IMG/VR virus record: IMGVR_UViG_3300032285_001268
Span: 1-64,000 of that record
Reading direction: 5' to 3' (one strand)
Origin: a virus
DNA: 64,000 bases
The position numbers and the translations under genes are program-made. This document shows, piece by piece, positions 4,733 through 37,397 of the stretch. The number at the start of each line of letters is the position of its first letter. The first letter of the stretch is position 1. A model generated the notes under the pieces. That model worked only from the letters and a program-made list of their open reading frames with translations, was not told the DNA's origin and did not search any database.

Positions 4733-4768
4733 GAATTCAATCCTCTACGTGTATTTAGCGTTAAATAG

Positions 4769-5974: not shown

Positions 5975-6994
5975 TTATCTCACCCAATACCAAATTGCAC
6001 CTGGACGAGCACCGTCTTCAATAGTGCTTAACCACGGAGCAGGATTCCAACCCCCACCGGTGATTAGTGTGCCCCACCAGCCACCACGGAATCCATCTGT
6101 GGTTAACCAACCGTAGTTGATACCAATACCTATCCAAGGCATACGTGCTTCCATAGCATTGTCATCGTAGTTCCACGTATTACCATTGTAGCCCCAACGT
6201 GCTAGTTCTGTAATGTTCTTGCGCCAACCTGGTGTACCTAACTGTGCATCACCCATATCAGAGCTGTCAAAAGTCTGCACAAAACTGTATGGTTCATTAG
6301 CGGTCCACGCACCACCTAGTGATCCGTGTTCACGAGCTGTGATCATAAAATCAAATCCTGACTCTGCACTTTTAATCTTATCAGCCCAACTTAAGATGCT
6401 GTAGTTATAGTCAGTTGACTGTATGTCATGCCCTACTAATTGTGTAGGAGCATTTGTTTCATTAAGTAAAAACAATTGATCAGTTTGCCACTCACACGCT
6501 GAGTTTTGTACAATCAAAGTCCAGCCGCCACCTAAGGTAGTCATATCGCAATATACTTGGAACGGATCTCCGTTGTTAATCGCATCATTCTGTATCCAAT
6601 ATACGCCATCTTCGCTGTCTGGATAGTCTTGTTTAATTTGCCAAGCACTAGTACTATATTCATCTATAGTCTTGCCAGTATGTACGCCCAATGCTTTATT
6701 GCGAGAAGTACGTTCTGCTCGTTCACGTGCTTGAACAGCAATCTCGTCGGTGCGTAGTGCGGCTATTAACGCCTGCCTATCTCCTGGACTTAGTGTTTCG
6801 TAATATGATAATATAGTTTCTTGATTCACAATTTCTTCCTCGATTTCAACAATGGTATTTTGATCATTTGATGTTTGTGCTATTAGTAAATCACTAGGCG
6901 GATGAATCACTAACGTTGATAGTGGACCGTGGCCTTCTGTAAATTCGCAGCCAATGTTTCCGTCATTACTAACTCTAACGATTAAATTAGCCAT
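5975..6994 (-). CDS. Fibrinogen-like-domain virion protein
   Basis: 339 residues. The C-terminal half carries the signature of fibrinogen-related domains: DGVYWIQ, then GDPFQVYCDMTTLGGGWTLI (residues about 140-175), and a Trp-rich end (WWGTLITGGGWNPAPW). The N-terminal half has a helical EIEEEIVNQETILSYYE segment that could trimerise. These domains bind sugars or acetylated ligands in animals; in phages they occur on tail proteins. It lies among fibre genes and ends exactly where hemA ends. Adhesin role inferred. Confidence 0.6.
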   Translation of the reverse strand: MANLIVRVSNDGNIGCEFTEGHGPLSTLVIHPPSDLLIAQTSNDQNTIVEIEEEIVNQETILSYYETLSPGDRQALIAALRTDEIAVQARERAERTSRNKALGVHTGKTIDEYSTSAWQIKQDYPDSEDGVYWIQNDAINNGDPFQVYCDMTTLGGGWTLIVQNSACEWQTDQLFLLNETNAPTQLVGHDIQSTDYNYSILSWADKIKSAESGFDFMITAREHGSLGGAWTANEPYSFVQTFDSSDMGDAQLGTPGWRKNITELARWGYNGNTWNYDDNAMEARMPWIGIGINYGWLTTDGFRGGWWGTLITGGGWNPAPWLSTIEDGARPGAIWYWVR

Positions 6995-7012
6995 AGTTGA
7001 AGATTGAAAATT

Positions 7013-7246
7013 TTAATACAAACTAATCAGCTGTTGTACGCCAAACACTAGGGCCGCAACTGCTTGTTGATCCGCGGCAGCTTCTTGTAGTTTGTCTGTA
7101 CTGATCAAATCAGCTAGAATTTCTTTGGCCTCACTCGGGCTTAGTTGTCCTGCTCCAACTGCTTCGTGTACTTGTAGTGCGTATTGGGCACGTTCAGCGG
7201 CCCATGGTTGACCGCTTTGCATTACTTCCATTAATACTTGGCTCAT
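7013..7246 (-). CDS. Conserved small phage protein, unknown function
   Basis: 77 residues, Ala/Gln-rich and predicted all-helical. The start ATG overlaps the stop of the lipoprotein gene upstream (TAATG), so it is translationally coupled. No motif recognised. Confidence 0.6.
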   Translation of the reverse strand: MSQVLMEVMQSGQPWAAERAQYALQVHEAVGAGQLSPSEAKEILADLISTDKLQEAAADQQAVAALVFGVQQLISLY

Positions 7247-7629
7247 TAGAATCTCCCTTGTACTGAACCTGCTATTATATCAACTTGTTGTTGTATAATC
7301 TTTTTCTTTAAGTCACAGTACAATGGACTTACAGGACCTTTGGCTACGCGATCTTGTAGTTCTTTAACTGTGTCGGTGATTGTGCCAGTTAGTTTGGCAA
7401 TATCACGTGTTGGTTTAGTTTTAGCATAGATGTCAAACCATTCTACATCTCGAGCTAATTGATTAACTTGTGGTGCTAGGTCTGCCTTACAATCAAAGTG
7501 TCTAACTTCTAACTGTATGTCTGTGATTGCTTTGGCTTGATTAACGTCCCAACGACTGGGGATCATTTCCATTATACCTGCACAGCCTGTTAAACTTAAA
7601 AATGCTACTACTGCTATTAGTCTTTTCAT
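7246..7629 (-). CDS. Putative lipoprotein
   Basis: 127 residues with a textbook lipoprotein signal: MKR, a hydrophobic stretch, then lipobox LTGC (cleavage before C16). The mature part is alpha-helical with two further Cys (about 47 and 105). It overlaps the HAD gene by ATGA and the next gene by TAATG. Envelope location is clear from the signal; a role in lysis (spanin-like) or superinfection exclusion is possible but unsupported by motif. Confidence 0.7.
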   Translation of the reverse strand: MKRLIAVVAFLSLTGCAGIMEMIPSRWDVNQAKAITDIQLEVRHFDCKADLAPQVNQLARDVEWFDIYAKTKPTRDIAKLTGTITDTVKELQDRVAKGPVSPLYCDLKKKIIQQQVDIIAGSVQGRF

Positions 7630-8384
7630 TTTTTGTGTCCCGATTTCATATTAGCCATCCAGTGTGCTAGCTGTGCGGCTCTGCCACTATGGCTCTTGGC
7701 AAACTTACGTAGGCTGCTAACGCTACTCTTTGTTGGCACATGATAACGTTTGCTGTCGCCTTTGTCTTGTGGATTCTTTCCGTTGGCAAAGTTTTCGTTA
7801 GTGCGATGATACTCACTTGCTTCACCTTCTAAACTAACATGCCAAGCATAAAATTTAGTATGTGGATACTCAGTTTTGAGTTCAACAAAACTTTCTAGAT
7901 TAGGTACTGCATCATCATACATTATGGCCTTGGTATAATTACCCTTGTTTAATAGGTCACGTATGATGATCTTTTTCTTTTCTTCAGTCTGTATCTTCTG
8001 TGTCATGTTTCCAGCACGATATACATGGACTTTACTCATGTCTACACCGTACTTGCGAAATGTATCTAAGAATAATTCTCTGTCATTAAAGTCAGCACGA
8101 GCCGTGACCATTACTACCTTGTTACCAGTAGCAATATCATGCTTGAGTTGATTGATCATGGGGATGATAGGTTTGCTGTTTTCAAAGAACTCTCGAGCAT
8201 CTTTGAAACGGCCAAAGTCGAAATCTTCCCCTGGCTGTAGTTTATAATGTGTAAACTCGTGGCTATTGAGTTCTCTAACTACTTGTCCATCTTTAACTAC
8301 ATGGACTTTAGTTTGCGTGTGTACAAGTGTATCGTCAATATCAAATATGACTAACTTGTTAGGAGCAAACTCAGTTGCTCTCAT
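7626..8384 (-). CDS. HAD-superfamily phosphatase
   Basis: 252 residues. HAD motif I is VIFDIDDTLVHT (residues 13-24), motif II is VVMVTARAD (about 93-101), and the acidic motif IMYDDAVPN (about 154-162) gives motif IV. The last 30 residues form a basic tail (SSLRKFAKSHSGRAAQLAHWM) shared with other phage head-associated proteins. ATGA overlaps on both sides. Substrate unknown: polynucleotide or nucleotide phosphatase both fit. Confidence 0.7.
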   Translation of the reverse strand: MRATEFAPNKLVIFDIDDTLVHTQTKVHVVKDGQVVRELNSHEFTHYKLQPGEDFDFGRFKDAREFFENSKPIIPMINQLKHDIATGNKVVMVTARADFNDRELFLDTFRKYGVDMSKVHVYRAGNMTQKIQTEEKKKIIIRDLLNKGNYTKAIMYDDAVPNLESFVELKTEYPHTKFYAWHVSLEGEASEYHRTNENFANGKNPQDKGDSKRYHVPTKSSVSSLRKFAKSHSGRAAQLAHWMANMKSGHKK

Positions 8385-8815
8385 TTTTTCTTCTTACCAG
8401 CACAGTGAGCACGTTGACTAAATCCTTTTGGATTAGAACAATCGATACTATTTTTATATTTCTGTGTCCACTTTTCCTGCATGATAACTTTCTCAGCTGT
8501 TTCGATTAGCTGGCGCATTTCTGCAATGCTTTCACAGTTCCAGCGGCGTAAGGCCAATGCCTTAGGAGTGGGCTTACCATTAGGCTTCTTCATTGGACCT
8601 TTATTACCCGACATTCTAGCACAGAATGATTTGCGGCGTTTAGCGGCCTTACTACCTTTCTTTAACTTACTAGGTTTAGTAGTAACAGCAGTTTGTAAAT
8701 GACTACCTGGATGTTCATGACGATAGGCATTGACTGCCTTTTGACTGAGTCCATTAGTCTTGTCGTGGTGATTGACTTTATTCCAATCTTCATTTAATAG
8801 TTCATTCATCTTCAT
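8381..8815 (-). CDS. Basic protein with RRKSFCARMSG motif, likely head-internal
   Basis: 144 residues, very Lys/Arg-rich. The core KRRKSFCARMSGNKGPM followed by a PTPKALALRRWNC motif (about 60-95) is conserved in T4-like marine and freshwater phages. The N-terminus MKMNELLNE resembles a T4 capsid-targeting sequence with a gp21-type L-x-E cleavage site. SD AGGAGG precedes the start. A DNA-binding internal head protein is inferred. Confidence 0.6.
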   Translation of the reverse strand: MKMNELLNEDWNKVNHHDKTNGLSQKAVNAYRHEHPGSHLQTAVTTKPSKLKKGSKAAKRRKSFCARMSGNKGPMKKPNGKPTPKALALRRWNCESIAEMRQLIETAEKVIMQEKWTQKYKNSIDCSNPKGFSQRAHCAGKKKK

Positions 8816-8938
8816 AAGGTATTCCTCCTATGCCGCAGCCAAACCTTGCTAGCCCTTCATACAGGGCTATAAGGATTTCTTTTATGGTCGCTATCATCGC
8901 CTTCTTTTTGTTCTGGCCAAACAGGATAGTTGCTTGGA

Positions 8939-9775
8939 TTAGTCTGCTGATGCATTAGCACCGCACTTAGCACGTTTAGCATTTGTAAGAGCTCCAAAGT
9001 TTACAGGCCATTCTTGCCCCGGCGCAAGTTCTATAGCACCTGCTGGGAAAGCATACTTAACACCAGCTTCTCGCATAATGTCAGCAACAGGCTTACGAAA
9101 TACTGTTAAGTCATTGCCTAAGTTAACATATGGCTTGGTGTGTGGAAATGCCCATCCAGCGATTTGTTTAGTTTGGTTATTAATAACAATCTTATAGTAT
9201 CCGTGTGGAACAATAACTCCGTTACCAATTGTAGGATCTCCTGCACCGTAGAATGCACCTACATAGATTGTATATGGTTGGTTAAGTTGTACTGCCCAGC
9301 CACGAACTGATGTTTCTAATAGTTTCCAAATGCCGCGATTCAATGATCCGTGTTGTGGATACATGTTGGTCATTAAGAATGATTCATACTCTACTTGTTG
9401 TGTCCAACTTAGATCGCCGTCTGGAGCGGCATGTCCTTTGTCGTAGCCTGTACCAACATAGTCAGCTGGTGTTGCACCTGTGCCGCCTAGTGATTGGTCA
9501 GCTACGAAAGCATTTGTGCGTGGAAAGCAACCTAATGCGTTTTGCGGTAATAGTGTATATGCTACATAAGCAGGAATCTTTACAGGAGCATCATATGCTA
9601 CTAGATATGCTTCACGGCAAATAGGAGTTGCTGTACGTGCTGTTTGTGCAAAACCATATGGGCTGTGTATTTGGCAGGCTTGTACTGGGTTAGGAACACG
9701 TTGATCCCAAGCGTTTGCTTGTAGGCTGACTGTAGCAATAAAGGCTAGAAGTAGCCCAGTTAATATCTTTTTCAC
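8939..9775 (-). CDS. Secreted DNA/RNA non-specific endonuclease
   Basis: 278 residues. N-terminal Sec signal peptide (MKK, hydrophobic core, LQANA cleavage near residue 22) targets it to the periplasm. The NUC-family catalytic motif DKGH is at 112-115 in YDKGHAAPDGD, and TNMYPQHGSLNRGIW (about 136-150) supplies the metal-binding Asn. Known family members cut single- and double-stranded DNA and RNA with a Mg ion. A phage could use it to degrade DNA outside the cytoplasm, for example that of a superinfecting phage. CTAAATATTA in the leader may be a late promoter. Confidence 0.85.
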   Translation of the reverse strand: MKKILTGLLLAFIATVSLQANAWDQRVPNPVQACQIHSPYGFAQTARTATPICREAYLVAYDAPVKIPAYVAYTLLPQNALGCFPRTNAFVADQSLGGTGATPADYVGTGYDKGHAAPDGDLSWTQQVEYESFLMTNMYPQHGSLNRGIWKLLETSVRGWAVQLNQPYTIYVGAFYGAGDPTIGNGVIVPHGYYKIVINNQTKQIAGWAFPHTKPYVNLGNDLTVFRKPVADIMREAGVKYAFPAGAIELAPGQEWPVNFGALTNAKRAKCGANASAD

Positions 9776-9801
9776 TGTGTAATCCCTTCAAAGTTAATAT
9801 G

Positions 9802-10392
9802 CTAATATTTAGCTAATTTTGCATTGAAGGCAATCGATATCCTATTACTATTACTAAGATTAGGATCTACGCTGTGAGAAATCCAGCTGGGAAATCCTAT
9901 GAGTTTATGTGCTTCTGGCGCTATGCTTATTCTAGAAGTATTAAATGGGCCAAACCCACTACAGGCAAGATCCGGTAGTGCGTATTCTAGTAGTGGAGTA
10001 GGATTGGCTAAGTTTATAAAGCCTGCTCCGGGATCAGCTTTAACATAGTAGACGAAACTAAAAAAATATTCCGGATGTAGATGCGATCTATTATTAGGTA
10101 ATTGCTCTAGCCCGGGTTGATTGATGTTTACCCATGCATTGTCTAATTCAAGCTGATATGGTTTTTGTATAAAATAATGATCGCTGACCTCCTTGATCAT
10201 TTCTTTTACCTGTTCCACTAGAGGCTGTAGTTTAGAGTCAGTGAGTTCTAGCATGCCGCTTTGCCAGCCACCGGGCTTTGATGCTAATCCGTTTATCAAA
10301 TCGTAGCAGTATTCTTCTATCGGTTGATTGTCTATTTGTAGAAATTTACTGCATATAGGAGTAGAAAAGGCCGCACTTACTTTAGACAACAT
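9802..10392 (-). CDS. 2OG-Fe(II) oxygenase-like protein
   Basis: About 196 residues from the ATG at 10392; a TTG at 10404 is an alternative. The double-stranded beta-helix core is seen as NVWVNINQPG-like NAWVNINQPG, SHLHPEYFFSFVYYV (iron-binding HxH), LIGFPSWISHSV (third His) and NRISIAFN (2-oxoglutarate Arg), the pattern of the putative 2OG-Fe(II) oxygenases common in T4-like aquatic phages. Substrate unknown. A second member is at 50.6-51.3 kb. Confidence 0.75.
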   Translation of the reverse strand: MLSKVSAAFSTPICSKFLQIDNQPIEEYCYDLINGLASKPGGWQSGMLELTDSKLQPLVEQVKEMIKEVSDHYFIQKPYQLELDNAWVNINQPGLEQLPNNRSHLHPEYFFSFVYYVKADPGAGFINLANPTPLLEYALPDLACSGFGPFNTSRISIAPEAHKLIGFPSWISHSVDPNLSNSNRISIAFNAKLAKY

Positions 10393-10396
10393 GTTA

Positions 10397-10825
10397 TCAA
10401 CCAAACCAACCTATACGTTTGCCCTGTGCTTTACGTTCATCATATTCTTCTGCGGTTTTAGGATAGGCCATTGCCCACCATGCAACAATGGCCATGAATA
10501 TACCTGTGCCTACCACTGCTTTCCAATTGTGTGTAGTGAACCACATGATGATTAGGCTACAGTCCATAGTAAGGATCATTAGCCAACGTGCCTTAACTGG
10601 GAACACACGTTTTTCTGTCCATCCTCGGAGGAAAGGACCAAAAATCTTATGATTCATTAGCCAGTTGTGCATGCGATCTGAACCACGAGCAAAACAGTAG
10701 GCCGCACCTACTGTAGGAGTACTCCATGGTATGCCGGGAGTAATTAGTCCTATATAGGCTACACCTAGGAGTATTACTCCCAAGGTGCACCATAGTATTT
10801 TCTTTATTGGATGAATTGTAGCCAT
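10397..10825 (-). CDS. DUF454 (YbaN-like) inner-membrane protein
   Basis: 142 residues with about four hydrophobic segments. LGVILLGVAYIGLITPGIPWSTPTVGAAYCFARGS (split over two helices) with HNWLMNHKIFGPFLRGW is the DUF454 signature. Function of the family is unknown. It overlaps the HNH gene by 22 bases and is host-like in character, so probably an acquired gene. Confidence 0.75.
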   Translation of the reverse strand: MATIHPIKKILWCTLGVILLGVAYIGLITPGIPWSTPTVGAAYCFARGSDRMHNWLMNHKIFGPFLRGWTEKRVFPVKARWLMILTMDCSLIIMWFTTHNWKAVVGTGIFMAIVAWWAMAYPKTAEEYDERKAQGKRIGWFG

Positions 10826-11319
10826 TCTTTGTACCTTACGTCTATGCCCTGCTTCTTACGCTTATTTACAAGATCGTAGAAATCAGGCTTGTAAGGTTTG
10901 ATCTTTGGCTTCCAACCTTTGGTGCTGTCACTCTTGCTGGCATTACATGGTGCGCAGGCAGTTGTACAGTTTTCCCAGGTACTCTTACCACCCTTTGATA
11001 CAGGCAGTACGTGGTCCAGTGTTGCTTCCCTGCGTTCGACCTTTTCGCCGCAATATTGGCATTCACAGTTGTCTCTTAGGTATACGTTAGATCTACTGAA
11101 ACGAACGGCAGTTTTTGGTTTCATGTAGTCACGTAACATCATAACACTAGGAACTTGTGTTTCCCAACGGGCTGAATGTACTATCCAGTTGTCGTGATAG
11201 AGTAAAACATCGGCCTTGTCTAAGACCATGTATTTGATTGAGTCTTCCCAAGTTAGGGTGCTCAATGGCATGTAGCTAACAGGCAAGCCATCAGCGTTTA
11301 GCAGTAAAGTTGCTGCCAT
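10804..11319 (-). CDS. HNH endonuclease
   Basis: 171 residues. The C-terminal half has the zinc-HNH core: CQYCGEK (Cys pair at about 95-98), LDHVLPVSKGG (His-Asp-His metal site), WENCTTACAPCNASKS (second Cys pair). Proteins of this kind are homing or restriction-type nucleases. A -10 TATAAT with -35 TTAGCA lies 50 bases upstream. Confidence 0.85.
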   Translation of the reverse strand: MAATLLLNADGLPVSYMPLSTLTWEDSIKYMVLDKADVLLYHDNWIVHSARWETQVPSVMMLRDYMKPKTAVRFSRSNVYLRDNCECQYCGEKVERREATLDHVLPVSKGGKSTWENCTTACAPCNASKSDSTKGWKPKIKPYKPDFYDLVNKRKKQGIDVRYKEWLQFIQ

Positions 11320-11368
11320 TTTGATTACCTCTTTCGATTGTGTTACAGACCCAACCTATGAAGTATAT

Positions 11369-11397
11369 ATTATACACTCAATTAATATTTATGCTAA
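11369..11397 (-). promoter_or_regulatory. Possible sigma70 promoter for the HNH gene
   Basis: Minus-strand TTAGCA, 17-bp spacer, TATAAT. The -10 is perfect and the -35 weak. Confidence 0.45.
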
Positions 11398-11937
11398 TAT
11401 ACTTTGAGCAAATTCTAAACCAGATCGATCTAGGGCATTGCACCATTGATCAGCATTGTCAGTTCCAAAAACCAACTCTGGATCGCTATTAGCCAAGCAC
11501 CAACTAGTAGCTGTTTGCCACGGAGGATCACCCCGTATTTCTCCCATCAGTTGTCCAGGACCCCAACCACAAACACCTAAAAACAATCTCCAGAACTCTG
11601 GTTTATCACCACTGGCTAATCTAGGTAAAATGTCTTCGTCCGAACTGATGCTAAACTTATCACTGATCTGCATAGTGTTACTACTTTGCCAATCATTAGT
11701 GTGTAAGAAGCTTAGATTTTTTGTGTTGAGAGGACCGCCTACATAAACGAAACCGGGACTATCGATCGCATAGCCTAGTTGTGCGCCAAACTCACTTACG
11801 CTCATTTGACTACGTTTGTTTAGAACTAATCCCATGCTTCCTTGCAGATGATGTTCTGTAATTATTATTACAGTCTTATGCCAGAAATTAGTTTTAACTG
11901 CGGGGGGTGCTATTATTAAATTACCTGTTATTTCCAT
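11389..11937 (-). CDS. YqgE/AlgH family protein (UPF0301)
   Basis: 182 residues, the normal family length. Signatures: GNLIIAPP at the N-terminus, GSMGLVLNKRS (about 33-43), VYVGGPLN (about 64-71), LGVCGWGPGQL (about 119-129) and the closing WCLANSDPELVFG. The cellular family is linked to alginate and gene regulation, but its biochemistry is not settled. Rare in phages, hence probably taken from a host. AATAAATAC on the minus strand ends 5 bases before the ATG. Confidence 0.85.
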   Translation of the reverse strand: MEITGNLIIAPPAVKTNFWHKTVIIITEHHLQGSMGLVLNKRSQMSVSEFGAQLGYAIDSPGFVYVGGPLNTKNLSFLHTNDWQSSNTMQISDKFSISSDEDILPRLASGDKPEFWRLFLGVCGWGPGQLMGEIRGDPPWQTATSWCLANSDPELVFGTDNADQWCNALDRSGLEFAQSILA

Positions 11938-11941
11938 GCAG

Positions 11942-11950
11942 GTATTTATT
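11942..11950 (-). promoter_or_regulatory. T4-like late promoter
   Basis: AATAAATAC on the minus strand, directly before the AlgH-like start and overlapping the stop codon of the transglycosylase gene. Confidence 0.45.
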
Positions 11951-12656
11951 AGGCAAAGCGAGCCACTCGATTTTTTACATCGCCTACGGTTATCTTACCG
12001 TCACGGTTAACATCGAGTCCTGCATTCTGAGCATATACTTTTCCACTGAATCCAGGAGCATCTTTTTGTCCTAAGACTGTGTGATCAGGATATCCAACAT
12101 ACTTAGGCATAAAGGTTGCCATGTACAAGTCGCCTGCTGATCCGTCTCCCACACCTGTGTACTTGTAAAATTTATAAACGTAGTCTAGTTGTTGAACTGC
12201 ATCCATCTGACGTAGTTCATCTGTAGTTGTTCCTAACATTCTAGCAGTGTCTGGCATAAACTGTATCAGTCCCGAAGCACCACCAGTCTTGTTTTGTGCG
12301 GCTGGATTAACTCCAGATTCTGCTTTCATAACAGCCAACATTGCATTAGAAGTTGTGCCAAGCTGTTGTGCAATCTTTTCTAGTTTCTTTTTAAAGTCTG
12401 GATCTTGTATTGTTGATACATCAACTTTTTGTGCATCAACTGAATTAGGACGGGCTAGTACATCTTTATACTTGTTAGCAATCTCTGGAAACTTTTCAGC
12501 GGCTCTACGTGTATAAGGACCTAGTCTTCCGTCAAGTCCGTCACCATTAGGTCCAAATGTACCCAAGTCAGCGCCTTTGGCTTTTAATTCTTTTTGCATT
12601 GTAAGTACTTGTTGGTCAAATGCTTCGTTGATTATTTTAAATTCGTAAAATCTCAT
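11949..12656 (-). CDS. Soluble lytic transglycosylase with EF-hand, head-internal candidate
   Basis: 235 residues. The N-terminus MRFYEFKIINE looks like a capsid-targeting peptide ending in a gp21-type site (I-N-E). Residues about 15-50 resemble a peptidoglycan-binding repeat (GDGLDGRLGPYTRRA). The SLT core has catalytic E in MKAESGVNP (about 110), GLIQFMPDTARMLG and YVYKFYKY. The C-terminus DVNRDGKITVGDV is a calcium-binding EF-hand/dockerin loop. It probably cleaves peptidoglycan glycan strands during DNA entry or lysis. Confidence 0.8.
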   Translation of the reverse strand: MRFYEFKIINEAFDQQVLTMQKELKAKGADLGTFGPNGDGLDGRLGPYTRRAAEKFPEIANKYKDVLARPNSVDAQKVDVSTIQDPDFKKKLEKIAQQLGTTSNAMLAVMKAESGVNPAAQNKTGGASGLIQFMPDTARMLGTTTDELRQMDAVQQLDYVYKFYKYTGVGDGSAGDLYMATFMPKYVGYPDHTVLGQKDAPGFSGKVYAQNAGLDVNRDGKITVGDVKNRVARFA

Positions 12657-16802: not shown

Positions 16803-17096
16803 TTAATTTAAAATCATTCTAATCAGTGCTATTGAATCAATTGTGGTCAACAAGACATAGTTAGCCAACATGCCAAATGATTTCCTATCATAAGCGCAGA
16901 AAGCATAAAGCAGGCAACCAGTAATCCAAAAAGGATAAAGTAAGTGTAGGGGAGGATTTGGTACAGTACTTGCCATGCCGATTGAGCAAGCGATACTGAG
17001 AGCCCATGCAGTGACTTCCATACAGAAGCGCCAAGGTTTAGTTTTGAAATCATCACGAATCCAATCTAGTGTGGGTTTAAAAAGTGTATCAATCAT
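16803..17096 (-). CDS. Small membrane protein, conserved in aquatic T4-like phages
   Basis: 97 residues with three hydrophobic segments (about 25-45, 50-68, 77-95) and the pattern KPWRFCMEVTAWALS, PPLHLLYPFW, SFGMLANYVLL, which I recall from T4-like aquatic phages. Inner-membrane location expected; function unknown. Confidence 0.65.
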   Translation of the reverse strand: MIDTLFKPTLDWIRDDFKTKPWRFCMEVTAWALSIACSIGMASTVPNPPLHLLYPFWITGCLLYAFCAYDRKSFGMLANYVLLTTIDSIALIRMILN

Positions 17097-17150
17097 ATAC
17101 TATTTTAGCAAAAAAAATACGGTCAGCCAACTATATTGAATATATACAGA

Positions 17151-17891
17151 ATGAAAATACTTGCTAACGGATGTTCTATGAGTTCTGGATTTGAATGTAC
17201 AGAACCCGGAGTGCAACATCGAAAAGATTTTGAATACTCATGGCCTAATCAATTGGCCGAGTCATTTAATCTTCCAATCGTAAATTTATCTCATGCTGGT
17301 CAAAGCAACAATATGATTTGGGCCAACACCCAAGCAGAGTTACTCAACGGAGATTATGATCCAGAGACTACCTTAGTTGTAATTGGTTGGACCAATTGGA
17401 ATCGACAAGAGTATGTGCATGACGATTTTATAAACTTCTTTAATCCTTGGTGGCAAGACAGTCAAAGCCCTAGAAAACATCAACCCTGCGTACAAAGTGC
17501 ATTTCGAGCATGGGTTGGACGAGATCCTGCTAGTGTTATTAATGATCAAGCAAGACTGCTATATTCTGCACAGACCTGGCTACAGTATCACGGCTATCGA
17601 TATTTTTGGATTAATGCTATGGAAAATCTACAACAACCACAAGCAGATCTAATACTAGATACTCAAAATTACACTCCATGCGATGCAGTATGGAGCAGTC
17701 TACAATTAGATGCAAACTATTTTCAAAGTACTAGTCAATTAACCTGGCTTAAAGAACATTGGCCAAAGAATAAGGTGCGACATCCTCAGATCATGTTTAG
17801 ACAAAATCAACATACCCACTGGGATCAAACTGCACTCAAGGCCTGGGCTGAACACATAAAAGAAAAAGCCCAGACTCAGCTGGGCCTTTAA
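17151..17891 (+). CDS. SGNH-hydrolase-like protein
   Basis: 246 residues from the ATG at 17151; an upstream ATG at 17136 would add five residues. NGCSMSSG (residues 5-12) is the block I motif with nucleophile Ser, QSNNMIW the Asn block, and HPQIMF/HTHWDQTALKAW (about 225-242) the DxxH-like end with D and H. Such enzymes are esterases or glycan deacetylases. It is one of few plus-strand genes in the left half, and its last codons form half of a bidirectional terminator. Confidence 0.6.
   Translation: MKILANGCSMSSGFECTEPGVQHRKDFEYSWPNQLAESFNLPIVNLSHAGQSNNMIWANTQAELLNGDYDPETTLVVIGWTNWNRQEYVHDDFINFFNPWWQDSQSPRKHQPCVQSAFRAWVGRDPASVINDQARLLYSAQTWLQYHGYRYFWINAMENLQQPQADLILDTQNYTPCDAVWSSLQLDANYFQSTSQLTWLKEHWPKNKVRHPQIMFRQNQHTHWDQTALKAWAEHIKEKAQTQLGL
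17866..17890. terminator. Bidirectional intrinsic terminator inside the 3' end of a CDS
   Basis: GCCCAG, 6-base loop, CTGGGC, flanked by AAAAA and TTT. It encodes the last residues and stop of the SGNH gene and also serves the convergent gene at 17908. Confidence 0.7.
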
Positions 17892-17907
17892 TCAAAGCAA
17901 ACTCAAA

Positions 17908-18180
17908 TTAGAGTGTGATGCCCATTGCGGCTGCCTTGTAACCCAAAGCAACGATACGACGGCTTGGACGGCCCATTTCGTATGTAGTAACATTAACACC
18001 GTTACCAGCTTTGTGGCTGTTAGCGTAGACTGCATAACCAGCGGCACGGATGCGGCTTGCTTCTGCTGAGATGTTCTTGATACCGAAACGCTTTTCAGCT
18101 TGTGAAGCTGTTAATTTTTGACCTTCTTTAAGAGCGTTGAATAACTTATAGGTCTTTGTTTCTGGATTGAATAGTTTCAT
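17908..18180 (-). CDS. Winged-helix/HTH phage protein
   Basis: 90 residues. TASQAEKRFGIKNISAEASRIRAAGYAVY (in part) is a typical helix-turn-helix; the C-terminus MGRPSRRIVALGYKAAA is conserved in T4-like marine phages. Probably a DNA-binding regulator. TATAAT sits 10 bases upstream of its SD. Confidence 0.65.
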   Translation of the reverse strand: MKLFNPETKTYKLFNALKEGQKLTASQAEKRFGIKNISAEASRIRAAGYAVYANSHKAGNGVNVTTYEMGRPSRRIVALGYKAAAMGITL

Positions 18181-18254
18181 TTGTTTTCCTTATATTATAA
18201 GGCCGATTTACATCAGCTTCATAAAGTATAACAAACTAAGGGTTGTAATACAAA

Positions 18255-18659
18255 TTAATTGGTTGAATTAGATTGAGCTAGTTCGCCAATAAACTTTTTA
18301 CCAGGATAACGCTTTTGGGCACGGGTAATAACATCTTCCATGCTGGCACCTTGAGCAACAAATGTTCCAGCATCTTTGATGTAGGCATAAAATTCAGAAC
18401 CAACTTTTTCAATGCTCAATTTTACAGCATCGGCTTCAGCAGTCCTAGAGTCTTTTATGTTTTTCAAAACATCAAGTGCTTCTTCATCACTGAGATTTTT
18501 AAGTTTACCTGTTAGGTCAAGTGCGGCCTGGATACGCTCAGGATGCTCTTGTATGATGTACAAGAACCATGCCTCGTGCATTTTCCAACCTATTTTGTAC
18601 GAAATGTAAGCCAGTGCAGTTATAAAAATCCACTGATTTTCAGCTAGGAATTCAAGCAT
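18255..18659 (-). CDS. Membrane-anchored hypothetical protein
   Basis: 134 residues. One N-terminal transmembrane helix (about 10-30) followed by a soluble mostly helical domain ending in a small alpha/beta motif (EFYAYIKDAGTFVAQG). Not recognised. Confidence 0.55.
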   Translation of the reverse strand: MLEFLAENQWIFITALAYISYKIGWKMHEAWFLYIIQEHPERIQAALDLTGKLKNLSDEEALDVLKNIKDSRTAEADAVKLSIEKVGSEFYAYIKDAGTFVAQGASMEDVITRAQKRYPGKKFIGELAQSNSTN

Positions 18660-18680
18660 GATATTTCTCCTACGTTAGAG

Positions 18681-19004
18681 TTATTTAATCAATTCTATAT
18701 TAATAATCTTAGCTACTCTAGTGCCTACATCTTCGCCACTAGGAATAACATACGTTTGGTTCTCGTGAGAATCTTTGCGAGTATCATAACGACGCACATT
18801 AAGAATACGTCCACCCACTGCTGTGCTCAATTCAAATGTAATACGATCTTGCCCTTCGGCTGATCCACGTTCTACCATTGCCATTCCTGTTGCCATTTTA
18901 TTTATTGCCCTTGATTCTTGATAATCTCTGTCTGATTCGTACTTGTATTTGTTTTCCCACATGTCTCTTACTTTGGTGTATAACCAACGATCAAATAACT
19001 TCAT
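18681..19004 (-). CDS. Hypothetical protein
   Basis: 107 residues. Charged helical N-terminus and a beta-rich C-terminal half (RITFELSTAVGGRILNVRRYD). Shares one base with the neighbour upstream (19004). Not recognised. Confidence 0.5.
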   Translation of the reverse strand: MKLFDRWLYTKVRDMWENKYKYESDRDYQESRAINKMATGMAMVERGSAEGQDRITFELSTAVGGRILNVRRYDTRKDSHENQTYVIPSGEDVGTRVAKIINIELIK

Positions 19005-19204
19005 TACTCTACTCCATAGGTTTTTCTGATCACTTCAGAAATTGTTGTTGCTGGCACGTTCATCATAGCATAGGTACTAATCAACGAAGAAATATCATTG
19101 ACCAGTAGCTGACTATAGGTTTCTAACGGAAGCAGATGTATGTCTGCTAGTTCATCTAGCTTGATGCCTGCTTCCTCTGCTAGTTTGGTCAAGTTACTAT
19201 GCAT
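19004..19204 (-). CDS. Small hypothetical protein
   Basis: 66 residues from the ATG at 19204, chosen because it overlaps the stop of the gene upstream (ATGCATAG), as do most starts here. Helical; not recognised. Confidence 0.5.
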   Translation of the reverse strand: MHSNLTKLAEEAGIKLDELADIHLLPLETYSQLLVNDISSLISTYAMMNVPATTISEVIRKTYGVE

Positions 19205-19667
19205 TATAATAGGGATCACCGTTTAAATACTTTTCATATTCTTGTCTACGGAAAATTTCTAATTTTTCATAGTAGTTACTGATACCATGCACTTCCTCAA
19301 GTTCATTAACCTGGTCGACTGTGATCTTGTCACCGTCTTCGACGGGAAATTTTTCACAAAACTCTCCGTAAGACATCTTATCAGATGGTACAGCCAAGTG
19401 TGGTGTAAGTCCAGGTATTGCGCCGGCAAACACTGGTTCTGCTGGAACAGATCTAGGTGCAGTACAGCTATCATTCCATAAGTCCTGCGCAGTCTTTTGC
19501 CACTCGGCTAGATCCCTAGCGTTCTTTTGAGACTGTTCCCATTCGGCCTTTTCAGCAAGATAGTCTTCTTGACTCAGAGCATGCCAACCAATACACTTGC
19601 CTGTTGGGCTACGACCACAACCGCATTTACCAAATTCTTCTACGTTTTCTGTTGCTCTAATTTGCAT
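19197..19667 (-). CDS. Cys-rich-motif phage protein
   Basis: 156 residues. N-terminal GKCGCGRSPTGKCIGWHALSQ resembles a CDGSH-type iron-sulfur or zinc site (three Cys and one His). The rest is charged and helical. Coupled by TAATG to a tiny membrane protein upstream. Confidence 0.55.
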   Translation of the reverse strand: MQIRATENVEEFGKCGCGRSPTGKCIGWHALSQEDYLAEKAEWEQSQKNARDLAEWQKTAQDLWNDSCTAPRSVPAEPVFAGAIPGLTPHLAVPSDKMSYGEFCEKFPVEDGDKITVDQVNELEEVHGISNYYEKLEIFRRQEYEKYLNGDPYYNA

Positions 19668-19765
19668 TATTCATCTCCTTTTAAACATTCAATAGCCTTG
19701 AGCACTGCAAACACTACAATAAAGGCCATAGCTATGATAATTATCCCTTCAATAATGACAGTCAT
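19667..19765 (-). CDS. Tiny membrane protein
   Basis: 32 residues, one transmembrane helix (residues about 3-24, Ile/Val/Ala-rich) and a charged C-terminus KGDE. Its ATG overlaps the previous stop (ATGA) and its stop overlaps the next ATG (TAATG), and the SD for the next gene (AAAGGAGATG) is inside it. These couplings support a real gene. Confidence 0.6.
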   Translation of the reverse strand: MTVIIEGIIIIAMAFIVVFAVLKAIECLKGDE

Positions 19766-19944
19766 AGTTTCATTATCCTTTCAATTTCTCTTTTGGCTTC
19801 TGTGAAATCGCCAGACTCAATCCTACGTTCTACCACATCCTCATAACGATTCCACAACTCCTGCATAAACGGATTATGTCCTGCATAAGGTTGTGTCCAA
19901 CGAATGGTATAAAGATACTTACTGGGGAATTGATCTGGATTCAT
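19762..19944 (-). CDS. Small hypothetical protein
   Basis: 60 residues. Aromatic N-terminal part (YLYTIRWTQPYAG) and a charged helix. Stop overlaps the start of the tiny membrane protein. Confidence 0.5.
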   Translation of the reverse strand: MNPDQFPSKYLYTIRWTQPYAGHNPFMQELWNRYEDVVERRIESGDFTEAKREIERIMKL

Positions 19945-30177: not shown

Positions 30178-30228
30178 CCCCAGCCACTGGGCCCTGCAAC
30201 TCGCCTGGGTTCCTCGCTGGGGCTTTTT
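30178..30228 (+). terminator. Intrinsic terminator
   Basis: CCCCAGC, 31-base loop with internal pairing, GCTGGGG, then CTTTTT. Ends the 29.6-30.2 kb transcript. Confidence 0.8.
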
Positions 30229-30320: not shown

Positions 30321-30363
30321 CCCCAGGGGCAGAGGTGTGGCTAAAATACAACATCATTTTGGC

Positions 30364-30392
30364 TTGACATTTTGGCTAGTGTGCGCTATAAT
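30364..30392 (+). promoter_or_regulatory. Early sigma70 promoter
   Basis: TTGACA, 17-bp spacer, TATAAT. First promoter of the YC-depleted block; its spacer TTTTGGCTAGTGTGCGC is nearly repeated at 30888, 31207 and 32471. Confidence 0.9.
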
Positions 30393-30421
30393 AAGTTTTT
30401 TACAGCAAACAGGAGCCTACA

Positions 30422-30586
30422 ATGCAATATTTTACTGTGTATCTGCGCTACGATAACGTAGAAGATTTGTGTGCTGTTAATGCTACTAGCGCAGAGGAAG
30501 CTATTGCTAAAGCGCAAGCATACTACAATGCACACGCAGAATTTTTAGACACTACTGTAACAGTTTATAAAGCAGTAGCAAGTTGA
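30422..30586 (+). CDS. Small proline-free early protein
   Basis: 54 residues (MQYFTVYLRYDNVEDLCAVN start), Ala-rich helix after a short beta hairpin. SD AGGAGCC. Stop TGA is within the next -35. First gene of the YC-depleted block; the fold hint (FTVYL, then TSAEEAIAKAQAYY) recurs in the protein at 31887. Confidence 0.65.
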   Translation: MQYFTVYLRYDNVEDLCAVNATSAEEAIAKAQAYYNAHAEFLDTTVTVYKAVAS

Positions 30587-30611
30587 CATTTTGGACTAAG
30601 TGCAGTATAAT
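30583..30611 (+). promoter_or_regulatory. Early sigma70 promoter overlapping a stop codon
   Basis: TTGACA, 17-bp spacer, TATAAT. Confidence 0.9.
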
Positions 30612-30637
30612 TAACACTTACACACACAGGAGCACAC

Positions 30638-30862
30638 ATGTTTACAAATTGCATAGCCCGCGCTAAGTTAAACTACAACAAAAAATTAAAAACATATAAA
30701 CTGCTAGTAGCATTTATTAATAACGGAGACAGCATTACGCAACGCAATGCAAGTTTTATTAGCGGAGATTTGTGCGCAGAAACTATACAAAAAGACTTAG
30801 TGCGTGTGCTACAAACAGCACAGCAAACTCTGCGCACTAACAACATACAATTACTAGACTAA
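30638..30862 (+). CDS. Small proline-free early protein
   Basis: 74 residues, basic N-terminus (ARAKLNYNKKLKTYKLLVAF) and helical C-terminus. SD CAGGAGCACAC. Not recognised. In the YC-depleted block. Confidence 0.6.
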   Translation: MFTNCIARAKLNYNKKLKTYKLLVAFINNGDSITQRNASFISGDLCAETIQKDLVRVLQTAQQTLRTNNIQLLD

Positions 30863-30887
30863 ACTAGTAAACTAATACATAGCGCAT

Positions 30888-30916
30888 TTGACTTTTTGGG
30901 CTAAGTGCGCTATAAT
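30888..30916 (+). promoter_or_regulatory. Early sigma70 promoter
   Basis: TTGACT, 17-bp spacer, TATAAT. Confidence 0.9.
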
Positions 30917-30937
30917 TAGTTTTTTAAGGAGCGCAAA

Positions 30938-31186
30938 ATGGGACAGTACGCAAACACAGTTAACGCATACGCAGAAGACGAAGCACGAGCACGAGTTTAC
31001 AAAACGCAAAGACGTTTGCAAAGTTGGGGACAAACAAGTTACATGTTAAATGTAACTACTAACAAGTTCCGCAACGACATAGAAAAAAAAGCAGTTAAAT
31101 TAATTGCTAAGATGGAACTTGAAAAACTTGCGCAAATGCAAAAAGAGATTGCACAGTTAAAAGCAAAACATAGCATTACAGACTAA
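30938..31186 (+). CDS. Small proline-free early protein, helical
   Basis: 82 residues, long basic amphipathic helices ending in MELEKLAQMQKEIAQLKAKH, a short coiled coil. SD AAGGAGCGCAAA. Not recognised. In the YC-depleted block. Confidence 0.6.
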   Translation: MGQYANTVNAYAEDEARARVYKTQRRLQSWGQTSYMLNVTTNKFRNDIEKKAVKLIAKMELEKLAQMQKEIAQLKAKHSITD

Positions 31187-31206
31187 AGGGTTAATACATA
31201 GCGCAC

Positions 31207-31235
31207 TTGACATTTTGGACTAAGTGCGCTATAAT
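31207..31235 (+). promoter_or_regulatory. Early sigma70 promoter
   Basis: TTGACA, 17-bp spacer, TATAAT. Confidence 0.9.
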
Positions 31236-31260
31236 TAGTTTTTTAGCAGTAAGGAGCAGT

Positions 31261-31530
31261 ATGTTGTTTAACACAAAGCAAATACGTGCATTAGCACGTA
31301 ATGTCAGTAACGTAAGCGCAAGTTATACGGACAGGACAAATAAAAAAGACAAAACAAGCAAAAGACGTACAGTAGTATTTTGTTTTAGCAATGCACAGGA
31401 TGCGGACACTTTAGCAAACTACTTGCGAGCTACTTGTGCAAACGAAGTAACACAGACTTGTGTTGCTAGAGATTACATAACACGCACATGGGGCGGAAGT
31501 TATGTACGTGTAAAAGCAGATTTAGCATAA
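31261..31530 (+). CDS. Small proline-free basic early protein
   Basis: 89 residues from the ATG at 31261, placed by SD AAGGAGCAGT; upstream in-frame codons lie within the promoter. Lys/Arg/Thr-rich middle, then FCFSNAQDADTLANYLRATC. Not recognised. In the YC-depleted block. Confidence 0.6.
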   Translation: MLFNTKQIRALARNVSNVSASYTDRTNKKDKTSKRRTVVFCFSNAQDADTLANYLRATCANEVTQTCVARDYITRTWGGSYVRVKADLA

Positions 31531-31539
31531 GGAGTAAAC

Positions 31540-31701
31540 ATGCAGACATTTGTATACAAAAAAACACAAACACATTATTTGCACATAGATGCAGAAACGC
31601 AAGAGGAAGCAGACGCTATTGCAGACACAGTTGACATATATGCGGACAATGTATATGCAACGGAACTAGACGGTTGGGAATTAACAGATGGAGAAGTATA
31701 A
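31540..31701 (+). CDS. Small proline-free early protein
   Basis: 53 residues, acidic (QEEADAIADTVDIYADNVYATELDG). SD AAGGAGTAAAC at the end of the previous gene; stop overlaps the next start as TAATG. In the YC-depleted block. Confidence 0.6.
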   Translation: MQTFVYKKTQTHYLHIDAETQEEADAIADTVDIYADNVYATELDGWELTDGEV

Positions 31702-31877
31702 TGACAATACAATACGTAGATGCAAAGGCGGAGATTTTTAAATTACTTGCACAAGTGGAGACACTATTGCTAGAAGCAACTTGCGAAGGCGAGCAAATAG
31801 CGGGCACACGATGGGGTGACGAGATGTTTAACACACATGCGGAACTAGTGCAAATGGTTGACTACTACATAGACTAA
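31701..31877 (+). CDS. Small proline-free acidic early protein
   Basis: 58 residues from the ATG at 31701, coupled by TAATG and preceded by GGAGAAG. Acidic helix (AEIFKLLAQVETLLLEATCEGEQ). In the YC-depleted block. Confidence 0.6.
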   Translation: MTIQYVDAKAEIFKLLAQVETLLLEATCEGEQIAGTRWGDEMFNTHAELVQMVDYYID

Positions 31878-31886
31878 GGAGCGATT

Positions 31887-32054
31887 ATGACTAAGCTATA
31901 CCAAGTCACTTACACACTAACAGTGACAGAGGAAGTAGAAGCAGATAGCAAAGCAGACGCTGAGCAGGCGTTTAGCGAACTGTTTAGCGATGCTAACGAC
32001 TTGACCTGCTTGGGCAAGTATAAAGTTAAATGCTTGGGCAAAGCAGACGATTGA
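31887..32054 (+). CDS. Small proline-free early protein
   Basis: 55 residues. KLYQVTYTLTVTEEVEADSKADAEQAF resembles the small beta-hairpin plus helix of the 30422 protein (both have V-T-Y/T-V-Y then an A/E-rich helix). SD AAGGAGCGATT. Stop TGA is in the next -35. In the YC-depleted block. Confidence 0.6.
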   Translation: MTKLYQVTYTLTVTEEVEADSKADAEQAFSELFSDANDLTCLGKYKVKCLGKADD

Positions 32055-32079
32055 CATTTTGAGCAAAGTATAGTATAAT
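32051..32079 (+). promoter_or_regulatory. Early sigma70 promoter overlapping a stop codon
   Basis: TTGACA, 17-bp spacer, TATAAT. Confidence 0.9.
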
Positions 32080-32101
32080 TGTTTTTTAAGGAGCGAAACT
32101 T

Positions 32102-32458
32102 ATGCAAGCAACACAGTTTAAAGTTAGCAAAAAGCTAACACTAGTAGGCGTTACACAAGAAGACGACACTACTTGTACAGAGTACAAGTGCAAAGTAAAA
32201 GTGCAACTAGCAGGCGACAGTATTTGGGACTGTAATTTAAAAACAGTTACAATTAAAGAGATACACATTGCAGAGACAGACTGGGGCGATGGCGACACTA
32301 ACATACACATTGCAGTTGTACACACAGGCGGTGACGACAGCTGGCGCATATACACAGACAGCGGATTTGAGGCTGCTGTTAGCGACTTGCTAGGGACAGA
32401 CGTTAGTTTTACAGAGCAGGGCATGCAAGACGACGGCTACGCGAGTATGGAGTTGTAA
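32102..32458 (+). CDS. Proline-free acidic early protein
   Basis: 118 residues, beta-rich (KVSKKLTLVGVTQEDD, KCKVKVQLAGDSIWDC, NIHIAVVHTGGDDSWRIY) and net acidic. SD AAGGAGCGAACTT. The gene contains no TC or CC at all. Not recognised. Confidence 0.65.
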   Translation: MQATQFKVSKKLTLVGVTQEDDTTCTEYKCKVKVQLAGDSIWDCNLKTVTIKEIHIAETDWGDGDTNIHIAVVHTGGDDSWRIYTDSGFEAAVSDLLGTDVSFTEQGMQDDGYASMEL

Positions 32459-32470
32459 TACATAGCGCAC

Positions 32471-32499
32471 TTGACTTTTTGGGTTAAGTGCGCTATAAT
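32471..32499 (+). promoter_or_regulatory. Early sigma70 promoter
   Basis: TTGACT, 17-bp spacer, TATAAT. Confidence 0.9.
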
Positions 32500-32526
32500 T
32501 AACACTTACACACAGCAGGAGCGAAT

Positions 32527-32853
32527 ATGTTTAATGCAAAAGATTTAGGCAAGCAGTTTATTAAGTTAGTGCAAGCTAAAGACACAGACTTAGTAGAAGA
32601 TATTGTTGACTACGACGGCGAGGATACTTACTTGCTAGACTGTTATGTAGACGACGGCGAAGCTACAGACTATGCTAGCATAGACGAGTTAATTGCTAAA
32701 GGCATTGACGGAATTGAAACTGTAGATACTGTAACAGTAATGGGTAGCGCAAGCGGCGACACACGCTGTTACAGCAATACTGTTACAGCAATAGTACTAG
32801 ACGATGGTACTAAGTGGATGGATGCGGCATACTACGATTTAATTTTTGCTTAA
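32527..32853 (+). CDS. Proline-free strongly acidic early protein
   Basis: 108 residues with many Asp/Glu and few Lys/Arg (DTDLVEDIVDYDGEDTYLLD). A DNA-mimic role is conceivable for such early acidic proteins but no family signature is seen. SD CAGGAGCGAAT is the exact complement of the loops at 40.0 kb. No TC or CC in the gene. Confidence 0.6.
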   Translation: MFNAKDLGKQFIKLVQAKDTDLVEDIVDYDGEDTYLLDCYVDDGEATDYASIDELIAKGIDGIETVDTVTVMGSASGDTRCYSNTVTAIVLDDGTKWMDAAYYDLIFA

Positions 32854-32862
32854 GGAGACTGT

Positions 32863-33051
32863 ATGAGCAACATGAGCAAAGCAATAGCATTGCATAAGGC
32901 AGTGCAGATGTTAGAGGAAGTAGACGCACTAGTGCAAAAAACACTAGGGGCTAGTGACGACTGTTACGATGTGCATTGTGCGCTGGAGGACTTGCAGGAT
33001 ACACTTGCAGGTTTTGCAGAGCAGTTAGAGGAAATGCAAATAACAGAGTAA
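32863..33051 (+). CDS. Small proline-free acidic early protein
   Basis: 62 residues, helical and acidic (LEDLQDTLAGFAEQLEEMQ). SD AAGGAGACTGT. An internal ATG at 32872 is possible. Last gene of the YC-depleted block. Confidence 0.6.
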   Translation: MSNMSKAIALHKAVQMLEEVDALVQKTLGASDDCYDVHCALEDLQDTLAGFAEQLEEMQITE

Positions 33052-33076
33052 AGTGTAGGGCTTTTGGGCAAGCTGG

Positions 33077-33105
33077 TTGACAGTTTGCCCAAATCGCAGT
33101 ATACT
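33077..33105 (+). promoter_or_regulatory. Early sigma70 promoter
   Basis: TTGACA, 17-bp spacer, TATACT; its 5' leader (TAGGCTAAGTTAACAAGGAGC) is nearly repeated after the promoter at 37433. Confidence 0.9.
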
Positions 33106-33774: not shown

Positions 33775-33964
33775 AAGTTAGAAATTAGGGGTTACCTACA
33801 CCGTTAGGCCCTTGGAGAGGTGGAAGCGTTCCGACGGGGACCTAGTATCCAGGGCAAGAAGGCAGACCTTCGGGCGAAGCTGGCGGGTAGAGTAGGCTGT
33901 AATGACGAAGGCAACTGACGCCCTGGAGACGGTCCTAGGCAGTTAGACCGGAGTTCCCCTAGTT
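33775..33964 (+). ncRNA. Structured non-coding RNA candidate
   Basis: About 190 bases between two consensus promoters with no usable ORF. Closing stem AATTAGGGG (33783-33791) with CCCCTAGTT (33956-33964); long-range pairing CCAGGGC (33849-33855) with GCCCTGG (33920-33926); hairpins GGAA/TTCC inside AGGT/ACCT (33818-33843), CTTC-GGGC-GAAG (33868-33879) and CGGTC/GACCG (33930-33950). The last arm overlaps the -35 of the next gene. GC is higher than its surroundings. It matches no RNA family I can name (not tmRNA, RNase P, 4.5S or group I intron core). Confidence 0.7.
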
Positions 33965-33991
33965 GACAACACTATCATTTGGTTGTATAAT
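33963..33991 (+). promoter_or_regulatory. Early sigma70 promoter
   Basis: TTGACA, 17-bp spacer, TATAAT. Confidence 0.9.
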
Positions 33992-37147: not shown

Positions 37148-37330
37148 ATGTTCATTCAGTACGAAGTCTGGGGCACACTCAACGGGCATGAAGAGCTCCT
37201 TGAGTGTGTAGCAACCCTAAAAGAAGCAGAAGAGTTGGCAGAAGAAGAAAGGTTCTTTGCTGATGAGATTTGGATCCTAGAGGACACGGACGGCGACCTG
37301 AAAGAAGTTAAGCGTTACCAGGGCCTATAG
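37148..37330 (+). CDS. Small acidic early protein overlapping a tRNA
   Basis: 60 residues, acidic and helical (TLKEAEELAEEERFFADEIWILEDTDG). Its last codons and stop are the first ten bases of the tRNA. No strong SD. Not recognised. Confidence 0.5.
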   Translation: MFIQYEVWGTLNGHEELLECVATLKEAEELAEEERFFADEIWILEDTDGDLKEVKRYQGL

Positions 37331-37397
37331 CTCAGTTGGTTAGAGCAGAGGACTCATAATCCTTTGGTCCCTGGTTCGAGTCCAGGTGGGCCCACCA
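37321..37397 (+). tRNA. tRNA-Ile(CAU), lysidine type
   Basis: 77 bases, full cloverleaf: acceptor GGGCCTA/TGGGCCC, D-loop TAGCTCAGTTGGTTAGAG, anticodon loop ACTCATAAT, T-arm GGTTCGAGTCC, encoded CCA. The CAU anticodon with the GAGGACTCATAATCCTTTGG arm looks like the AUA-reading tRNA-Ile2 (C modified to lysidine) more than elongator tRNA-Met. The 5' end overlaps the preceding CDS. Confidence 0.9.

Follow-up and report, generated by a model that had tools for sequence, protein, structure and literature searches.

A phage transcription block purged of UC and CC on its RNA-sense strand

The locus and its YC desert

The 64,000-nucleotide stretch of DNA analysed here (the window; positions 1 to 64,000 of IMG/VR record IMGVR_UViG_3300032285_001268) contains a block of small genes that is almost free of YC dinucleotides. 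YC stands for TC or CC (UC or CC in RNA), and GR for the reverse complement on the opposite strand (GA or GG). The full record is 185,262 bases long and is that of a large uncultured T4-like myovirus. Its terminase has 53% identity to those of the Pseudomonas phages PA5oct and Paride, and it also encodes a primase, a DnaB-type helicase and SSB. The block belongs to a defined set of transcription units that are under continuing selection for the absence of UC and CC from the RNA-sense strand, at the expense of proline and TCN serine codons. Its elements, including ten open reading frames (ORFs), are as follows.

30363-33088, + strand: YC desert, the entire block; segment scan score 231, 11 YC among 473 C
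30178-30228, + strand: GC-rich inverted repeat CCCCAGC...GCTGGGGCTTTTT followed by a T-run, intrinsic-terminator-like, 5' of the block; a similar element lies 5' of the desert in the related contig L002
30364-30392, + strand: first promoter in the block, of sigma70 type (TTGACA-17-TATAAT)
30422-30586, + strand: small ORF, 54 aa; 1 YC among 29 C
30583-30611, + strand: inner promoter
30638-30862, + strand: ORF of 74 aa, MFTNC family (24 members; relatives range from purged to intermediate)
30888-30916, + strand: inner promoter
30938-31186, + strand: ORF of 82 aa, MGQYAN family; purged here, intermediate in relatives
31207-31235, + strand: inner promoter TTGACATTTTGGACTAAGTGCGCTATAAT, with exact copies in contigs L001 and L002
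31261-31530, + strand: ORF of 89 aa; family purged in 11 of 11 relatives; predicted alpha/beta fold, predicted local distance difference test (pLDDT) 84
31540-31701, + strand: ORF of 53 aa; 0 YC
31701-31877, + strand: ORF of 58 aa, acidic; family purged in 8 of 8
31887-32054, + strand: ORF of 55 aa; 3 YC
32051-32079, + strand: inner promoter TTGACATTTTGAGCAAAGTATAGTATAAT
32102-32458, + strand: anchor gene, 118 aa, motif [FY][TS]EQGMQ; predicted beta-rich fold, pLDDT 91; 0 YC among 68 C
32471-32499, + strand: inner promoter
32527-32853, + strand: ORF of 108 aa; 0 YC among 52 C
32863-33051, + strand: ORF of 62 aa, acidic; family purged in 8 of 11
33077-33105, + strand: promoter of the first unpurged downstream gene; YC returns within its spacer

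A log-odds segment scan of the 185-kb record detects this single + strand desert and none on the - strand; against the local YC rate the depletion has a log10 p of about -101. A first-pass annotation of the window had described the desert, and it proves stronger than stated there, recurring in 53 relatives. The annotation's counts of 5 TC (observed/expected 0.04) and 6 CC (0.07) between 30361 and 33070 are exact. GA and GG stand at 0.79 and 0.73 of expectation over the same interval, so that only one strand is purged, as had been claimed. It had also reported no YC from 32004 to 33088. This is right from 32005, giving a YC-free gap of 1083 bases, with one CC at the very first bases of the interval. 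In the whole record outside the block the longest YC gap is 110 bases and the longest GR gap 129 bases.

How many YC should be expected depends on what is held fixed. The annotation's figure of well over 150 stands if composition is fixed. It does not stand if the ten block proteins are kept and codons are drawn from genome usage, which gives 100 ± 8 YC in the coding parts (500 draws, minimum 76), where 10 are observed. Coding and untranslated sequence are both hit, as described at first pass, and the sharp edges are equally real: YC is normal through 30354, just ahead of the -35 box, and again from 33088. The near-identical contig L001, which comes from a different sample, has the same block as far as it extends, and this rules out an assembly error.

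Pfam and PHROGs searches found no significant family for the ten block proteins and no family for relatives of the anchor. With the AlphaFold model of the anchor, Foldseek returned no PDB match below E 0.3 and one viral match, M1HTR4 (135 aa), with a template modelling score (TM) of 0.67. The anchor family keeps conserved W, YTD and EQGMQ residues. The AlphaFold model of the 31261 ORF family had no clear PDB match in Foldseek.

Two further features lie 3' of the block. Positions 33788-33965, behind a promoter just 3' of the block, are GC-rich, non-coding and apparently highly structured, with no Rfam match; over the region, Rfam gave only tRNAs above the gathering score. A single tRNA-Met(cat) gene occupies 37321-37397.

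Recurrence, strand rule and selection

A profile search of IMG/VR with the anchor family yielded 305 relatives, of which 80 were fetched. Deserts of 0.4-5 kb are present in 53 distinct relatives (62.8 kb pooled), with 5.9 YC per kb compared with 84 per kb in the flanks, and with RC raised from 132 to 172 per kb. Zero-YC runs of 1-2 kb occur in a dozen phages. When desert RNA is divided into 80-nucleotide windows, 76% are without any YC and practically none has six. The anchor family is the most constant member of the deserts, and 37 of its distinct members contain 0 YC. The first-pass annotation had named relatives with normal YC content as the observation that would speak against its idea; what the relatives contain is a conserved purge.

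The divergent contig L002, found through an exact copy of an inner promoter, carries an orthologous block that is purged too. Its anchor protein is 81% identical to that of the window and the two genes differ at 60 nucleotides, with no YC in either, where an equal number of random substitutions would be expected to produce 14. A neighbouring gene is likewise 81% identical and has normal YC. Distant members of the anchor family, found within larger proteins of other contigs, also have normal YC; one distant relative sits in a contig of a Magnetococcales metagenome-assembled genome (L132). Moreover, one and the same family can be purged in one phage and not in the next, as in the near-identical L083 and L087 genes, and the purge is thus a property of the transcription unit rather than of the protein. 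No desert was found in the early regions of the cultured large phages PA5oct, CBB, CcrPW, P-SSM2 and Phosso. Nucleotide searches of cultured phages with the block gave no match, and neither did tblastn searches with three anchor variants and with the 31261 ORF.

It is the sense strand that is purged, also where neighbouring genes point opposite ways. In G002 (the contig of L100) a + strand desert at 17090-18757 is followed by two - strand genes purged on their own sense strand (18956-19623), and beyond these by + strand genes again purged on +. Deserts start at a consensus promoter, commonly right behind an intrinsic terminator. At the first promoter, YC accounts for 35% of C over the 60 bases upstream, 22% in the spacer (partly depleted, as the share outside is 42%) and 5% at +7 to +47; the same three zones of inner promoters have 7%, 5% and 2%. 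Neighbouring genes outside the block, with promoters that are equally good, are unpurged.

Within deserts the reduction is about ten-fold alike in codon positions, codon junctions, leaders and non-coding spacers. The YC values at the three codon positions are 0.045, 0.018 and 0.032, and 0.044 in non-coding sequence; the flanks have 0.49, 0.27 and 0.41, and 0.42. GR in ordinary deserts is down 20-30% at codon positions 2-3 and in spacers. The strand rule, the promoter boundaries and the equal purge of coding and non-coding sequence together exclude explanations based on codons alone or on double-stranded DNA, and leave as target either RNA or the displaced non-template strand. As a separate observation, 5' leaders are also YC-poor (13-16% of C) in early genes outside deserts, which perhaps keeps the Shine-Dalgarno (SD) sequence free.

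The substitutions that removed YC are of every kind. We compared 34 pairs of unpurged and purged homologous genes containing 294 in-codon YC, whose fates were YT (84), YR (68), RC (46), RN (88) and unchanged (8). Loss by any substitution, not just C-to-T, is what the first-pass annotation had expected of Rho avoidance, and it marks the purge as selection rather than deamination. Synonymous NYC sites went to T, A and G in 31, 19 and 8 cases, close to control NYT sites (68, 48 and 11). Near-identical pairs show changes such as TCT to AGC, ACC to ACA and, across codon junctions, GTT followed by C to GTG followed by C, and ATT followed by C to ATA followed by C. At four-fold codons the lost C is replaced mostly by A, and the T share is not raised (GCN in G000, 0.30 to 0.27). 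C is favoured where it is allowed, in NRC codons (GAC 0.41 to 0.71, TAC 0.39 to 0.70). The proteins pay for this: proline makes up 0-0.4% of purged genes compared with about 4%, and TCN serine is at 0. This zero tolerance, seen in empty windows, long YC-free runs and near-total proline loss, indicates that each single YC is costly. Purged proteins are small and acidic, with a mean charge of -0.098 per residue compared with -0.017.

An extreme class is purged of GR as well. It comprises an 8-kb array of small genes at 4337-12545 of G001 (the contig of L129; also L133) and about 19.1-20.5 kb of G002. Its ORFs, of 80-184 aa, encode hardly any Pro, Gly, Asp or Glu, and some have no recognisable SD. 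They seem to be real genes, as comparison by eye suggests homology between two of the proteins (at 7813 and 11089). Terminators in this class are rebuilt as hairpins free of YC and GR, for example GCAAGCAGCAATGCTTGC. Antisense promoters were considered as the cause of the two-strand purge in G001 and rejected, as they are not enriched there. The units of the G001 array are set apart by GCAAGCAGCAATGCTTGC hairpins and by CCCC...GGGG elements that recur and share a conserved GGCCCCGCTG core. In G002 (L136), YC-rich structured elements, possibly small RNAs, lie between or beside purged units at 18280-18400, 18755-18880 and 19700-19790; one has the GGCCCCGCTG core behind its own promoter and another is flanked by AACATGTTAA palindromes.

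Candidate readers of YC

Our leading explanation, to which we would give somewhat less than an even chance, is that an agent in the infected cell reads single-stranded YC, and that any one such site is enough for it to inactivate an entire message. An endoribonuclease specific for YC would be the simplest case; it could be made by the phage for host shutoff or belong to the host as an inducible defence RNase. The purged genes would be those that must be expressed while the agent is active, and their products, which are small, mostly acidic and served by their own promoters, might be counter-defence or takeover factors. The remaining genome would be expressed at times when the agent is off or inhibited, and would for that reason have stayed unpurged. 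Such an enzyme fits because the footprint calls for a reader of single-stranded YC that acts through one site on RNA or the displaced strand, with only a subset of genes immune. Indeed, nearly every site is gone from the RNA, in coding and non-coding parts and on the sense strand only, as evasion of an RNase would leave it.

Several points weigh against the endoribonuclease. We know of no RNase with YC specificity. The T4 RegB family, the only RNase family searched for, was not found in these phages, and the control was silent too. The footprint would be identical if the displaced non-template DNA strand were read instead. To account for the GR purge of the extreme class, one would have to assume antisense transcription, a second specificity or an effect on both DNA strands. 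Finally, the agent, its timing and the role of the purged proteins are what we infer, the words 'early' and 'conditional' included.

The first-pass annotation read the block as RNA on which host Rho cannot load, so that transcription would run to full length even without close translation. Selection on the sense strand, conserved among relatives, is borne out; Rho itself is not established as the cause. We regard Rho evasion as unlikely, and Rho remains the best known candidate. It acts on RNA alone, with E. coli Rho reading precisely CC and UC on the nascent transcript (PMC13323073), and in Bacilli the composition of the coding strand is known to be shaped by its avoidance. A purge that tracks the sense strand in units bounded by promoters is compatible with it, and practically every stretch of about 80 nucleotides has too few YC for loading. 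The depletion goes far beyond that need, however: Rho reads a series of up to six YC, yet three-quarters of the windows hold none, although any number below six should be enough. Where Rho avoidance is known, its signature is a shortage of T, and of C compared with G, across more than 150 nucleotides; this is not found here. Pyrimidine content goes from 0.450 to 0.419, windows with C>G make up 0.21 of deserts compared with 0.27, RC is raised rather than lowered, and the G001 array, with C>G in 64% of windows, has the opposite of that signature. Rho gives no reason why ribosome-covered codons should be purged as strongly as untranslated RNA, and the near-total loss of proline counts against it. 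Rho is constitutive, and adjoining genes with equally good promoters should therefore be purged, but they are not. The GR purge is also left unexplained.

We consider it improbable that the agent acts on the displaced non-template DNA strand, as a single-strand nuclease or an Alc-like cytosine sensor might during transcription. Such an agent would leave a sense-strand-only, promoter-bounded footprint that could be extended to both strands in the extreme class, and the partial depletion of first-promoter spacers is in its favour. However, the 60 bases upstream of the first promoter are YC-normal, strong-promoter genes outside the block are unpurged, and there is no candidate enzyme.

Selection for unstructured, accessible mRNA or for efficient translation (a free SD, preferred codons) is very improbable. 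The YC-poor leaders of unpurged early genes would suit it, as would the preference of purged genes for allowed C-ending codons, which is usual in highly expressed genes. Desert RNA nevertheless folds slightly better than composition-matched shuffles (-0.206 compared with -0.178 kcal/mol/nt), on which ground avoidance of RNA structure was rejected; codon-only effects were rejected because codon junctions and spacers are purged as much as codons.

The two alternatives that the first-pass annotation itself had raised are scarcely credible. Strand-biased cytosine deamination in a YC context would account for TT at 1.4-fold above expectation in the block, but it is excluded by the substitution pattern: C-to-T is not dominant, the lost C shifts to A, four-fold T is flat, NRC codon C rises, and among homologues the 5' base has changed as well, and TCT has become AGC. 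As for palindromic restriction sites with GA/TC or GG/CC, where losing one half is enough, their avoidance would neither track the transcribed strand nor keep to units nor purge every YC. This applies equally to a further reading, avoidance of clustered regularly interspaced short palindromic repeats (CRISPR) protospacer-adjacent motifs (PAMs), which CC and TTC resemble; the purge changes strand with gene orientation in G002, and a PAM on the - strand (GR on +) is still present at about 0.75 of expectation.

Taking the YC-specific agent as our working explanation, we suggest, at a probability approaching even, that large T4-like phages and their hosts share an RNA-level, YC-reading system of immunity or shutoff. 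On this view the immune messages of the phages would make up a set about the size of an operon and follow a restricted nucleotide grammar, with some lineages purging GR as well and encoding proteins nearly without Pro, Gly, Asp and Glu. The purge implies that an agent of very low sequence complexity decides which RNAs survive in the infected cell. Should that agent be Rho, no stronger example of a gene shaped by Rho would be known; should it be a nuclease, it would represent a new principle of defence or shutoff. YC-free and YC-bearing messages offer a direct handle on the agent, and a test case for the limits of coding-sequence flexibility.

Comparison with known systems

We know of no description of selection that has cleared two dinucleotides out of messages kilobases in length across dozens of phages, and a search of the literature for such a purge found none. 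Four known systems bear comparison.

Restriction-site avoidance likewise involves the loss of short words under defence pressure. It concerns double-stranded DNA, acts genome-wide and ignores transcription, whereas the purge described here tracks it.

The T4 endoribonuclease RegB reads GGAG in leaders, and T4 Alc senses unmodified cytosine in DNA. Both are phage-encoded agents that destroy or stop some messages and spare others, as a phage-made YC endoribonuclease would. Neither yields coding sequence free of YC. The decay of T4 mRNA has been reviewed (PMC3014915).

TifA of T4-like phages evades RNase toxins such as ToxIN (PMC10853763). If the YC endoribonuclease is a host defence, T4-like phages would again be facing a sequence-specific, RNA-cleaving endoribonuclease, with small phage proteins involved. 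TifA traps the toxin, whereas here the message itself would be without a target. That target would be two bases rather than a longer motif, and we are aware of no YC-specific toxin.

Avoidance of Rho, which recognises CC and UC, is how Dierksheide et al. (2026) have explained the purine bias seen in bacterial genes (PMC13323073). There, as here, an RNA-reading factor with CC/UC specificity shapes the sense strand and codon use, and foreign genes must comply. Rho avoidance is a graded, genome-wide shift in C relative to G and in T over more than 150 nucleotides; the phage purge, in contrast, is an all-or-none loss of two dinucleotides in a few units that hardly alters the totals of C and T.

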